A stretch of DNA of 64,000 nucleotides from contig NZ_CP155551.1 of NCBI RefSeq assembly GCF_039679125.1, positions 1,302,001-1,366,000 of the forward strand, given 5' to 3'. Each line of letters begins with the position of its first letter. The stretch's first letter is position 1. The notes under the pieces are model-generated. The model saw only the letters and a list, made by a program, of their open reading frames with translations. It was not told the DNA's origin and made no database searches. Source of the stretch: Blastococcus sp. HT6-4 (GTDB taxonomy: Bacteria; Actinomycetota; Actinomycetes; Mycobacteriales; Geodermatophilaceae). This document shows positions 6,217 through 10,878 of this stretch, piece after piece. The position numbers and the translations under genes were made by a program.

Positions 6217-7224
6217 TCAGCGGACGACGACGACGAACTCCCCGCGCGGCACGAACTCCCCGATCACCGGGGAACCGGGGATCTCCCCGCCCAGCAGCAG
6301 GCCCCCGGAGGTCTGCGCGTCGGCGAGCAGCAGCGCCTCGTCCTCGGATACCGCCGACAGGTCGGTGTGCGGGCGCACCCAGTCGAGGTTGCGGCGGGTG
6401 CCGCCGGAGACGAACCCGGCGGCCAGCGCCTCGCGCGCACCGGTCAGGTAGGGGACGGCGGCGGCGTCGACCACGGCGGTGACCCCGCTGGCCCGCGCCA
6501 TCTTGTAGAGGTGGCCCAGCAGCCCGAACCCGGTGACGTCGGTGCCGGCCCGGATCCCGGCGGTGACGGCGGCCTGCCCGGCGGCCCGGTTCAGCGCGGT
6601 CATCGAGGCGACCGCCTCCTCCGACACCTCGCCGGTCGCTTTCATCCGGCTGTTGAGCACGCCGACGCCGAGCGGTTTGGTGAGCGTCAGCGGGGTTCCG
6701 GCGACGGCCCCGGAGTTGGTGACGATCCGATCGACGTCGACGACGCCGGTCACCGCCATCCCGTACTTCGGCTCGGGGTCGTCGATCGAGTGGCCACCGC
6801 CCACGTGGCAGCCGGCCTCCTGCGCCACCTCCAGCCCGCCGCGCAGCACCTCGGCGGCGAGCTCGGCGGGCAGCACGTCGCGGGGCCAGCCGAGCAGGTT
6901 GACCGCGACGACGGGGACCCCGCCCATGGCGTAGACGTCGGAGAGCGCGTTCGCGGCCGCGATCCGGCCGAAGGTGTACGCGTCGTCGACGACCGGGGTG
7001 AAGAAGTCGGTGGTGAGCACGAGGCCCTGCCCGCCGGCGATCCGCACGACGGCCGCGTCGTCGCCGTCGTCCAGGCCGATCACCAGCTCGGCGTTCGGTG
7101 CGGACGGCCCGGTGGCGGTCAGGCCGGCGACGACGGCCTCCAGCTCGCCGGGCGGGATCTTGCAGGCGCAGCCCCCGCCGTGCGCGTACTGGGTGAGCCG
7201 GACGGTCGCGGGCGCGGTGGTCAC
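6217..7224 (-). CDS. selD: selenide, water dikinase (selenophosphate synthetase)
   Basis: Makes selenophosphate from selenide and ATP, the selenium donor for SelA. The 335-residue protein has the catalytic motif HGGGCACK with Cys19 and Lys22, so the active site uses cysteine, not selenocysteine. The glycine-rich ATP-binding stretch, DDAAV and the HVGGGHSID segment near residue 130 are also present. The start is GTG at 7224; GGGG lies only one base before it, a poor ribosome binding site. The frame is open upstream through three codons to a TAG at 7234-7236 and then 128 more codons, so translation may depend on reinitiation or UAG readthrough. It diverges from selC-selA-selB. Confidence 0.95.
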   Translation of the reverse strand: MTTAPATVRLTQYAHGGGCACKIPPGELEAVVAGLTATGPSAPNAELVIGLDDGDDAAVVRIAGGQGLVLTTDFFTPVVDDAYTFGRIAAANALSDVYAMGGVPVVAVNLLGWPRDVLPAELAAEVLRGGLEVAQEAGCHVGGGHSIDDPEPKYGMAVTGVVDVDRIVTNSGAVAGTPLTLTKPLGVGVLNSRMKATGEVSEEAVASMTALNRAAGQAAVTAGIRAGTDVTGFGLLGHLYKMARASGVTAVVDAAAVPYLTGAREALAAGFVSGGTRRNLDWVRPHTDLSAVSEDEALLLADAQTSGGLLLGGEIPGSPVIGEFVPRGEFVVVVR

Positions 7225-7685: not shown

Positions 7686-7781
7686 GGAGGCGTCAGGGTG
7701 TCTGGTGGCCCCCGCGGCCTCTAAAGCCGACGTGGCCGAGCAACTCGGTCAGGCGGGTTCGATTCCCGTCCGCCTCCGCCA
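7686..7781 (+). tRNA. selC: selenocysteine tRNA with CUA anticodon (reads UAG)
   Basis: Ninety-three nucleotides plus an encoded CCA. The acceptor is GGAGGCGU (7686-7693) against CCGCCUCC (7770-7777), seven pairs plus a U-C mismatch. The T-stem has five pairs around UUCGAUU, giving the 13-pair acceptor/T stack typical of bacterial tRNA-Sec. The variable arm is a perfect 7-bp hairpin (7734-7740 with 7744-7750), and the D-arm is extended. The anticodon loop 7719-7725 is CUCUAAA, closed by CGGC/GCCG, so U33 is followed by C-U-A. The anticodon is therefore CUA, not UCA. Position between selD and selA confirms identity. A TAGGCT -10-like box at 7673-7678 may be the promoter. Confidence 0.93.
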
Positions 7782-7810: not shown

Positions 7811-9142
7811 ATGTCTCCCGACCCGACGACCGGCGATCCGCGCCGGCGCGTCCCCCGCACCGACACCCTGCTGGCCGACCCCCGGCTGGCCGCGGCCGGG
7901 GACCGGCTGGGCCGCGGCCTGGTGAAGAGCGCGGTCCAGCGGGTGCAGCAGCGGGTGCGGACCGGCGAGGTGGCCCCCGACGCCGCCGTCGGCGCCGTGC
8001 TGGCCGAGCTGCCGGCGACGGCGGGGAGCCTGCGTCCGGTCCTCAACGCCACCGGCGTGGTCGTGCACACCAACCTCGGCCGGGCGCCGTTGTCGCCGGC
8101 GGCGGTGGCCGCGGTCGTGGCCGCCAGCGGCACCACCGACGTGGAGCTCGACCTCGCGACCGGCCGCCGCGGCCCCCGTGGTGAGGCGGCGATCGCGGCG
8201 CTCCTCGAGGCCGTCCCCGCCGCCGAGGCCGCGATCGTGGTGAACAACTGCGCGGCGGCGCTCGCCCTGGTCGCCACGGCCCTGGGGCAGGGGCGTGAGC
8301 TCGTGCTCGCCCGCGGGGAGCTGGTCGAGATCGGCGACGGCTTCCGCATCCCCGAGCTGCTGCAGACGACCGGCGCGCGGCTGCGCGAGGTCGGCACGAC
8401 CAACCGGGTCGCCCTCGGCGACTACCGCGGCGCGCTGGGCCCGGAGACCGGTGCGGTGCTGAAGGTGCACCCGTCGAACTTCGTCGTCCGCGGGTTCACC
8501 CGCTCCGTCGAGGTGGCCGAGCTCGCCGCCGCGCTGGAGGGCACCGGGGTGCCGCTGGTCGCCGACGTCGGCTCGGGGCTCCTGCGGCCGCACCCCCTGC
8601 TGCCCGACGAGCCGGATCTGCAGACCACGCTCGCCGCCGGGGCGGACCTCGTGCTGGCCAGCGGCGACAAGCTGCTGGGCGGGCCCCAGGCCGGGCTCGT
8701 CCTCGGCCGGGCGGAGCTGGTCCAGCGGCTGCGCCGGCATCCGCTGTACCGGGCACTGCGGGTGGACAAGACGACGCTGGCCGCCCTCGAGGCGACGCTG
8801 CGCGGGCCGCTGCCGCCGGTGGCCGAGATGCTCGCCGCCGACGTCGACGGGCTGCGCGCCCGGGCGCGGGCGGTGGCCGGGCGGCTGGTCGAGGCGGGGG
8901 TGGACGCCGCCGCCGTGGACGCCGACTCCCGGGTCGGCGGGGGAGGGGCGCCCGAGCACCCGCTGCCGGGCGCCGCCGTCGCCCTGCCCTCCGCGTTCGT
9001 CGAGCCGCTGCGGGGGGCGACGCCGCCGGTCGTCGGCTACCTCGACGAGGGCCGCACGCTGCTGAACCTGCGCAGCGTCCCGCCCGAGGCCGACGACGAC
9101 CTGGTCGCCGCCGTCCTGGAGGTGGCCCGCCGGTGGACGTGA
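7811..9142 (+). CDS. selA: L-seryl-tRNA(Sec) selenium transferase
   Basis: Converts seryl-tRNA(Sec) to selenocysteyl-tRNA(Sec) using selenophosphate. The 443-residue PLP enzyme has the N-terminal helical tRNA-binding part, then LNATGVVVHTNLGRAPLS at about residues 78-95 and the PLP lysine Lys287 in LASGDKLLGGPQAG. Length is normal for the bacterial decameric enzyme. The ATG at 7811 follows the tRNA-Sec CCA end by 29 bases, and a small hairpin (7788-7808) covers the purine run that would be its ribosome binding site. The 3' end overlaps selB by 10 bases, so selC-selA-selB look like one transcription unit. Confidence 0.96.
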   Translation: MSPDPTTGDPRRRVPRTDTLLADPRLAAAGDRLGRGLVKSAVQRVQQRVRTGEVAPDAAVGAVLAELPATAGSLRPVLNATGVVVHTNLGRAPLSPAAVAAVVAASGTTDVELDLATGRRGPRGEAAIAALLEAVPAAEAAIVVNNCAAALALVATALGQGRELVLARGELVEIGDGFRIPELLQTTGARLREVGTTNRVALGDYRGALGPETGAVLKVHPSNFVVRGFTRSVEVAELAAALEGTGVPLVADVGSGLLRPHPLLPDEPDLQTTLAAGADLVLASGDKLLGGPQAGLVLGRAELVQRLRRHPLYRALRVDKTTLAALEATLRGPLPPVAEMLAADVDGLRARARAVAGRLVEAGVDAAAVDADSRVGGGGAPEHPLPGAAVALPSAFVEPLRGATPPVVGYLDEGRTLLNLRSVPPEADDDLVAAVLEVARRWT

Positions 9143-10878
9143 TCGCGACCGCCGGACACGTCGACCACGGCAAGTCGGCGCTGGTCCGTGCGCTCACGGG
9201 CATGGAGCCCGACCGCTGGGCGGAGGAGCGCCGCCGCGGCCTCACCATCGACCTCGGCTTCGCCTGGACGACGCTGCCGTCGGGACGCCGGCTGGCGATG
9301 GTCGACGTGCCCGGCCACGAGCGGTTCGTCGGGAACATGCTGGCCGGTGTGGGGTCGGTGCCCGCGGCGCTGGTCGTCGTCGCGGCCGACGACGGCTGGT
9401 CGGCGCAGACCGCGGAGCACGTCGCCGTCCTCGATGCGCTCGGTGTGCGGCACGCCCTGCTCGCGGTCACCAAGGCCGACCTCGCCGATCCGGCCCCCGT
9501 GCTCGCCGACGCGCGGGAACGGCTGGCCGGGACGTCGATGGGCGCGGTGCCCGGGGTGGCGGTGAGCGCGGTGACCGGCTCCGGGCTGCCCGAGCTGATC
9601 GCCGCGCTGGAGGAGCTGCTGGGCGTCCTGCCCGCCCCCGATCCCGAGGCGCCCGTCCGGCTGTGGATCGACCGGGCCTTCACCATCAAGGGGGCCGGGA
9701 CGGTGGTCACCGGCACCCTCGCCGCGGGCTCGGCCGCCGCGGGGGACCGGTTCCTGCTCGGCGACCGGGAGGTGACCGTGCGGGGCGTGCAGTCCCTGGG
9801 CGCGCCCGTCGAACGGGCACGGGCCACCGCGCGGGTGGCCCTGAACCTGCGCGGGGTCGCCGTGGAGGACCTGTCCCGCGGTGATGCCCTGCTCACCCCC
9901 GGGGCCTTCCGGCGCACCGACGTCGTCGACGTCACCCTCGCCGGCGAACCGGACGACCGGCTGCCCACCGAGCCGGTCGTGCACGTCGGTTCGGCCACGG
10001 TCGGCGCCCGGCTGCGGCCGCTCGACGGCGCGGCCGTGCGGCTGCGGCTGAACGAGCCGCTGCCGCTGCGGGTCGGCGACCGGCTGCTGCTCCGCGATCC
10101 CGGCGCCCGGCGGGTGCTGGGGGCCGACGTGCGCGACGTCGACCCTCCGGAGCTCCGCCGCCGGGGCGCCGCGCGGCAGCGGGCCGCCGACCTCGCCGCC
10201 CAGCCGACGGGCAGCGAGGGAGCGGCGAGCGACCTCGCCCGCCGCCGGATCGTGCGGGCCGCGGACTTCGCCGCCATGGGCTGGCCGGTGCCCGCCGGTG
10301 CCACGGTGCACGGGCCCTGGCTGCTGGCCGCCGGGCTGGCCGACGAGCTGGCCGAGCGGGTGCCCGACGTCGTCGGCCGCTACCGGAGGCTGCGGCCGCT
10401 GGAGCCCGGACCGCCGGCGGAGGTCGTGCGCCGGGCCCTGCAGCTGCCGGACGCCGACCTGGTGGCCGCGCTCGTCCGGGCGCCGCTGGTGCTGCGCGAG
10501 GGACGGGTCGTCGACGGCGCCGCGGTCCTGCCGCCGGAGGTCCAGCGCGCGGTCGACGCCGTCCGCGCCCGGCTGGCGGCTGACCCGTTCGCCGCCCCCG
10601 AGGCGCCGGACCTGGTGGCGGCCGGCCTCGGTGTGCGCGAGCTCGCCGCCGCCGTCCGCAGCGGCCAGCTGGTGCGGATCGGCGAGGCGGTCTACCTGGC
10701 GCCGGGCATCGCCGACGTCGCCCGGACCCGGCTGACCGCGCTAGCGCAGCCGTTCACCCTCAGCCAGGCCCGCCAGGCGTGGGGGACCAGCCGTCGCGTC
10801 GCCGTCCCCCTCATGGAGTGGCTCGACGCCCAGGGCGTCACCGTCCGGCAGCCGGACAACACCCGCCGCCTGCGCTGA
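9133..10878 (+). CDS. selB: selenocysteine-specific translation elongation factor
   Basis: A 581-residue GTPase that brings Sec-tRNA(Sec) to a recoded codon. G1 is GHVDHGKS at residues 8-15, G3 DVPGHE near 58, and G4 TKAD near 114. Three EF-Tu-like beta domains follow, then four winged-helix domains that in the family bind the SECIS hairpin; the last contains FTLSQARQAWGTSRR and ends with the usual LMEWLDAQGVTVR. The GTG start lies inside the 3' end of selA (10-base overlap), implying coupling. In this genome SelB must work at UAG codons because the tRNA anticodon is CUA; nothing in SelB itself needs to read the codon. Confidence 0.95.
   Translation: MDVIATAGHVDHGKSALVRALTGMEPDRWAEERRRGLTIDLGFAWTTLPSGRRLAMVDVPGHERFVGNMLAGVGSVPAALVVVAADDGWSAQTAEHVAVLDALGVRHALLAVTKADLADPAPVLADARERLAGTSMGAVPGVAVSAVTGSGLPELIAALEELLGVLPAPDPEAPVRLWIDRAFTIKGAGTVVTGTLAAGSAAAGDRFLLGDREVTVRGVQSLGAPVERARATARVALNLRGVAVEDLSRGDALLTPGAFRRTDVVDVTLAGEPDDRLPTEPVVHVGSATVGARLRPLDGAAVRLRLNEPLPLRVGDRLLLRDPGARRVLGADVRDVDPPELRRRGAARQRAADLAAQPTGSEGAASDLARRRIVRAADFAAMGWPVPAGATVHGPWLLAAGLADELAERVPDVVGRYRRLRPLEPGPPAEVVRRALQLPDADLVAALVRAPLVLREGRVVDGAAVLPPEVQRAVDAVRARLAADPFAAPEAPDLVAAGLGVRELAAAVRSGQLVRIGEAVYLAPGIADVARTRLTALAQPFTLSQARQAWGTSRRVAVPLMEWLDAQGVTVRQPDNTRRLR

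Follow-up and report, generated by a model that had tools for sequence, protein, structure and literature searches.

A tRNA-Sec gene with a CUA anticodon in Blastococcus sp. HT6-4 and the probable use of UAG for selenocysteine in its family

Blastococcus sp. HT6-4 carries a tRNA-Sec gene whose anticodon has almost certainly moved from UCA to CUA, and which would insert selenocysteine (Sec) at UAG codons located ahead of a SECIS hairpin. The gene lies in the 64,000-nucleotide stretch of DNA that was analysed here as a whole (the window). The features that can be read from the DNA are the identity of the tRNA, its anticodon, the neighbouring sel genes, TAG codons at Sec sites, a hairpin in the formate dehydrogenase (FDH) genes, and the grouping of the corresponding SelA sequences in one clade. 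The strain is a further genome of an already published UAG-Sec variant.

Features of the window:

7686..7781, + strand: selC, tRNA-Sec gene with encoded CCA (Rfam RF01852, 65.7 bits; ARAGORN, cta)
7721..7723, + strand: anticodon CTA, which reads UAG, within the loop CTCTAAA at 7719-7725 (sequence)
7718..7726, + strand: C31 (7718) and G39 (7726), closing pair of the anticodon loop (comparison of CUA and UCA loci)
6217..7224, − strand: selD, selenide water dikinase, Cys form (GCACKIP) (TIGR00476, 387.8 bits; translation)
7811..9142, + strand: selA, L-seryl-tRNA(Sec) selenium transferase (TIGR00474, 423.3 bits)
9133..10878, + strand: selB, Sec-specific elongation factor with a C-terminal SelB-wing_3 domain (TIGR00475, 288.2 bits; PF09107)

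The tRNA-Sec gene and its anticodon loop

The preliminary description of this DNA, made from the letters alone, had placed a tRNA-Sec with a CUA anticodon and the loop CUCUAAA at 7686-7781. The covariance model that it had proposed as a check matched the gene at 65.7 bits, above the Rfam cut-off of 47 bits (E 1.2e-11), with a match that stops at 7777, the CCA lying beyond the end of the model. ARAGORN delimited the same 96 nucleotides with anticodon cta, labelled Pyl, and CTCTAAA was read at the loop positions. The acceptor/T stack (8+5), as determined by manual reading of the sequence together with the Rfam match, has the 13 positions announced, but only 12 of them are paired, one as G-U; the remaining one is a U8-C66 mismatch, which was shared by every CUA locus and by 34 of the 37 UCA loci read. 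The variable arm is long, and a manual count gave eight pairs, including one G-U, in place of the seven previously reported. Position 73 is a G. Assignment of the gene to tRNA-Sec is thus based on a covariance score above the cut-off, on the 8+5 stack, long arm and G73, and on the presence of selA, selB, and selD.

The loop was identical in all 102 tRNA-Sec genes with CUA that were read in the family, which makes a sequencing error at 7719-7725, named beforehand as one way in which the anticodon could be wrong, unlikely. Moreover, the pair closing the loop differed with the anticodon: C31-G39 was present in 102 out of 102 CUA genes (103 loci were compared, of which L073 duplicates L245), and U31-A39 in 37 out of 37 UCA loci read. 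The UCA tRNA-Sec genes closest to that of the window were 92% identical to it. As judged from these alignments, the anticodon switch is accompanied by a change of the adjacent 31-39 pair. Since the CUA genes form one clade, this coupling counts as one event and not as 102. It suggests that C31-G39 was fixed together with CUA in the lineage of the window and that the pair beside the loop may tune the reading of UAG.

Gene neighbourhood in the window

The tRNA-Sec gene sits between selD and selA-selB, and all three proteins scored above their NCBIfam cut-offs, in accordance with the flanking genes named in the preliminary description. Among the SelA rows compared, the window protein was most similar to that of B. 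xanthinilyticus (89% identity). Searches for four families (PF00384, PF24696, PF00578, and TIGR01926) gave no stop-bearing match in the window, in line with the earlier statement that it holds no selenoprotein gene.

At the start of an open reading frame located at 156-560, we also observed a Guanidine-III riboswitch (169-234; 62.8 bits, Rfam). The later part of this frame corresponds to a small multidrug resistance (SMR) protein, whose true start is probably located after position 234.

Selenoprotein candidates in the complete genome

The genome of Blastococcus sp. HT6-4 consists of one contig of 4,297,415 bases, with a completeness of 100. Nine Rfam tRNA-Sec matches were obtained at E 0.001, two of them above the cut-off. 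The second of these (48.2 bits) was rejected, as it corresponds to a tRNA-Ser(tga), and seven of the eight matches below 55 bits were typed as tRNA-Ser, -Tyr, -Leu, or -Met. No second tRNA-Sec, and none with a UCA anticodon, was found in the genome, the eighth minor match (30.6 bits) lying outside the typed set.

A PF00384 profile search identified two FDH genes with one TAG each. The PF24696 search gave one UGSC protein, with a TAG directly ahead of GSC; no Pfam family was assigned to this protein in a scan with approximate coordinates. Among ten PF00578 matches, one, an AhpC/TSA-like gene, contained a TAG, and both TIGR01926 matches were without stop. Three of these genes have the following coordinates:

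310730-314104 of the genome: FDH gene, TAG at QAR-I-TAG-H (PF00384)
3503227-3506523 of the genome: FDH gene, TAG at QAR-I-TAG-H (PF00384)
L199:1470-2129: AhpC/TSA-like gene, TAG at W-TAG-P-Y-C, codon 27 (PF00578)

Overall, four TAG selenoprotein candidates were identified (two FDH, one UGSC, and one AhpC/TSA-like), and no TGA selenoprotein was found among the four families searched in the genome. The genome therefore combines a CUA tRNA-Sec, without a UCA one, with an in-frame TAG at the Sec position of four genes. Neither of the observations that had been expected to speak against the code variant, a second tRNA-Sec with UCA and selenoproteins using TGA, was made within these searches. FDH, the target known from relatives, was indeed recovered twice, each time with a TAG as the catalytic Sec codon and a conserved hairpin behind it, as had been suggested for checking; the UGSC and AhpC/TSA-like genes add likely targets beyond FDH.

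The SECIS hairpin

In 50 of the 51 FDH sites, the loop GGTCT was found at codons +7/+8, the position that it has in E. coli fdhF; the exception was the gene with TGC (Cys). Five further sites, in which Ser replaces Gly, had the loop AGTYT. The stem was paired in 207 out of 217 cells, versus 72-139 when the partner was slid by 1-3, and one position exhibited five standard pair types (covariation); this count was made on the 31 distinct 45-base sequences among the 51 sites, with the five AGTYT sites left out. The predicted FDH hairpin after TAG is thus conserved. When the codons of each gene were ranked by hairpin energy, the Sec site came 20th out of 1111 codons in the first FDH gene, 139th out of 1083 in the second, 17th out of 205 in AhpC, and 47th out of 154 in UGSC. 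Hairpin energy by itself does not single out every site, and in UGSC it does not demonstrate a hairpin.

Distribution of tRNA-Sec and selenoprotein genes in the family

A survey of 112 genomes of the family (threshold E 1e-9) detected tRNA-Sec in 108 of them: 101 genomes with CUA and seven with UCA only, whereas none was detected in the other four. All 110 genes were read, 102 as CUA and eight as UCA. The seven UCA-only genomes belong to genera g5, g6, and g7, and the remaining UCA gene occurs in Geodermatophilus marinus LHW52908 as a second tRNA-Sec. A set of 80 named loci, selected from a wider collection of SelA matches, comprised 37 with CUA, 29 with UCA, and 14 without a tRNA-Sec found, one of the 37 CUA loci (L073) being a repeat of a family genome. 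A record named UNVERIFIED_ORG Bacillus sp. AZ43 (L022) has a CUA tRNA-Sec and a SelA that falls inside Blastococcus, and is misnamed.

FDH was present in 101 of the 112 genomes (E 1e-60), with TAG in every row spanning residue 216; the rows that do not span this residue comprised ten without stop and one with TGA only. Some FDH rows had additional TAG or TGA codons in frame, which were rejected as Sec codons, since they were located upstream of the start codon in the six loci read (L153, L157, L207, L208, L210, and L212). An order-wide search matched FDH in 207 out of 298 genomes, and, among the matches listed, the rows from other families had TGA, except for one without stop. When Sec sites were read directly, all 40 in-family sites were TAG, while 15 of the 16 sites from other families were TGA and one was TGC. 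Both FDH copies of one family genome, G079 (L211 on contig C12 and L319 on contig C4), were without the Sec site, about 22 residues being gone; they seem to change frame at the gap, which would reflect either a deletion or an assembly dropout of the GC-rich hairpin.

The UGSC search matched 54 of the 112 genomes with 95 rows, of which 72 had one TAG, 23 no stop, and none TGA. The AhpC/TSA-like protein was found in 30 of the 112 genomes; 28 rows had one TAG and the remaining two align only downstream of the Sec site. A TAG in a TIGR01926 match of family genome G039 was rejected as a Sec site, as it lies ahead of an intact CxxC.

UAG as a stop and as a Sec codon

The 45 genes called in the window by codon-position GC end with TGA (38 genes), TAG (5 genes), or TAA (2 genes), and the five that end with TAG all have Pfam domains. 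Among the AhpC orthologues with a TAG at the Sec site (20 fetched out of 30), the terminator was TAG in 12 and TGA in 8. With TAG present both at Sec sites and as a terminator, UAG appears to have two meanings that are set by context, and such a context-set meaning fits the recruitment of SelB by the hairpin. The 12 orthologues (among L199 and L321-L340) have UAG as Sec site and as terminator within one and the same gene.

Genome-wide reassignment of UAG to Sec, for which a hairpin would not be required, would agree with the single tRNA-Sec, with CUA and no UCA counterpart; given that TAG ends 5 of the 45 called window genes and is also the terminator of 12 of the 20 AhpC genes with TAG at the Sec site, we regard it as scarcely credible. 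A tRNA-Pyl inserting Pyl at UAG, which would be charged by PylRS, shares the CUA anticodon with the window gene and would account for the ARAGORN label. It is nevertheless extremely improbable, because the gene matches the Rfam tRNA-Sec model above the cut-off and is placed between selD and selA-selB, because the orthologues of the FDH targets outside the family use TGA at the same codon, and because the variable arm is long, whereas that of tRNA-Pyl comprises three nucleotides (according to an excerpt of PMC7609411).

The gene could also be a decayed tRNA-Sec, the TAG codons then being plain stops or signs of pseudogenes. The U8-C66 mismatch, non-standard positions in the outer anticodon stem, and the two G079 FDH genes broken at the Sec site point in that direction, but decay is very unlikely in view of a loop kept in all 102 CUA genes, a mismatch that also occurs in 34 of the 37 UCA loci, and FDH, AhpC, and UGSC frames that are open around a TAG at the same site across genera.

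For a functional tRNA-Sec reading UAG, charging, delivery, competition with release factor 1, and the presence of Sec in protein may be proposed by analogy with known selenium biology. Seryl-tRNA synthetase would load the tRNA with Ser, and SelA, using selenophosphate from SelD, would turn Ser-tRNA into Sec-tRNA, which SelB would bring to UAG codons with a SECIS hairpin downstream. The competitor at UAG would be release factor 1 in place of release factor 2, and UAG codons without a hairpin would keep ending genes. The likely targets are the two FDH, the UGSC-motif protein, and the AhpC/TSA-like protein.

Origin of the anticodon switch

In a tree built from 87 SelA rows, 86 of them different, the 39 CUA rows (38 distinct) were found on one branch with a support of 100/100; outside this branch lay three rows with UCA from the same GTDB family. 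Genera g5-g7 (nine genomes, G066-G074) had a UCA tRNA-Sec in seven genomes and none found in two. No FDH was detected in these genera at E 1e-60, their assemblies being incomplete; at E 1e-5, distant FDH matches appeared in seven of the nine genomes, and TGA-H at the HAPSVVGL site was readable in two of the four FDH-like loci of g6-g7 that were examined. With UCA and without the TAG-type FDH, g5-g7 may represent the pre-switch state. The change from UCA to CUA most likely occurred once, in the ancestor of Blastococcus, Geodermatophilus, Modestobacter, Klenkia, Goekera, and Trujillonella, with the SECIS hairpin of FDH being kept.

Comparison with known systems

UAG-decoding tRNA-Sec of the Geodermatophilaceae were reportedly described by Mukai et al. 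in 2016 (Angew Chem). Our literature search returned no report of a coupling of the 31-39 pair and none in which one strain uses UAG as well as UGA for Sec, although either may still be in print (Mukai et al. 2016).

According to excerpts of PMC5330540 (Secmarker), CUA tRNA-Sec genes occur in three Geodermatophilaceae genomes, which agrees with the earlier placement of the window gene in a known but rare variant; the same excerpts cite Mukai et al. for TAG in FDH and UGSC and mention an AhpC with TAG in Blastococcus saxobsidens DD2. The use of UAG for Sec by some bacteria, with anticodon variants, is also stated in excerpts of PMC8124441 and of PMC10778597. In a 2026 review (PMC13188914), the family is not named in the main text. 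The window gene thus resembles the published variant in its CUA anticodon, in its family, and in the TAG codons of FDH and UGSC, as well as of AhpC, as in strain DD2. The present analysis differs in covering one more genome, which has two FDHs with TAG, a UGSC, and an AhpC/TSA-like gene, and adds the count over 112 genomes, the one-clade test, the 31-39 coupling, and the occurrence of UAG in both roles, Sec codon and terminator, within a single gene. UGA-decoding tRNA-Sec genes (g5-g7, Amycolatopsis, Mycobacterium, and Nonomuraea) belong to the same covariance family and are often located beside selA, but have UCA and U31-A39, and FDH outside the family has TGA.

These comparisons indicate that the Sec codon can be exchanged without loss of the selenium genes or of the FDH hairpin. 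As the family exhibits the states before (UCA) and after (CUA) the switch, and possibly both in one strain, codon switching becomes testable in living relatives. For annotation, tools led by the anticodon wrongly call the tRNA a tRNA-Pyl, as ARAGORN did in this case, and the standard code would truncate TAG selenoprotein genes.

A second tRNA-Sec in Geodermatophilus marinus LHW52908

G. marinus LHW52908 (G058) has a CUA tRNA-Sec and a TAG in both FDH and UGSC. The assignment of G058 to Geodermatophilus sp. LHW52908, named G. marinus at NCBI, is based on identical SelA rows of L128 and L031. Its contig C17 also carries a UCA tRNA-Sec and, 315 bp apart, an AhpD-like gene (L127:1169-2157) with an in-frame TGA at NRCFY-U. 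Among the tRNA-Sec loci compared, this UCA tRNA was closest to that of Amycolatopsis (84%). When read through the TGA, the AhpD-like gene scored 112.6 bits against TIGR01926 (cut-off 81.8); against NF041238, whose name contains CFYUT, it reached 51.8 bits, below the cut-off of 175. The TGA ranked 58th out of 178 codons for hairpin energy. The strain may hold both Sec codes, as far as its assembly indicates, and the UCA tRNA would presumably be served by the resident SelA, SelB, and SelD.

The stretch with the UCA tRNA and the AhpD-like gene had a GC content of 62% versus 75%. Its tetranucleotide profile correlated with that of Geodermatophilus loci at 0.68, compared with 0.94 for the remainder of C17 and 0.85-0.93 for six slices of the window. 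C17 itself is a Geodermatophilus contig, since a search with its 45-51 kb segment gave matches in each of the 25 other Geodermatophilus genomes covered. Transposase genes flank the foreign-looking stretch (DDE_Tnp_1 on the left; IS110 and rve-type on the right), which may be an assembly misjoin at transposase repeats.

A joint reading would be that a UAG-Sec lineage regained UGA-Sec through one small foreign cassette, a selenoprotein bringing its own tRNA, so that G. marinus would have two Sec stop codons at once, and that C31-G39 tunes the reading of UAG; we consider this reading to be evenly balanced between right and wrong. No source of the AhpD-like gene was found at E 1e-25 in 394 genomes of the class, a search run without a positive control, nor in the viral contigs searched, and the UCA tRNA had no phage match. 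Plasmid relatives of the AhpD-like gene occurred in 333 records, all below 60% identity. Plasmids of Tsukamurella and Arthrobacter contain a similar tRNA sequence but were rejected as the source, as it lies there inside selD-selA-selB-fdh blocks.

These blocks, in Tsukamurella tyrosinosolvens and Arthrobacter sp. YA7-1 (plasmid loci L349 and L350), are arranged as selB, selA, a tRNA-like region, selD, and fdh. The plasmid of Arthrobacter sp. YA7-1 was typed as conjugative.
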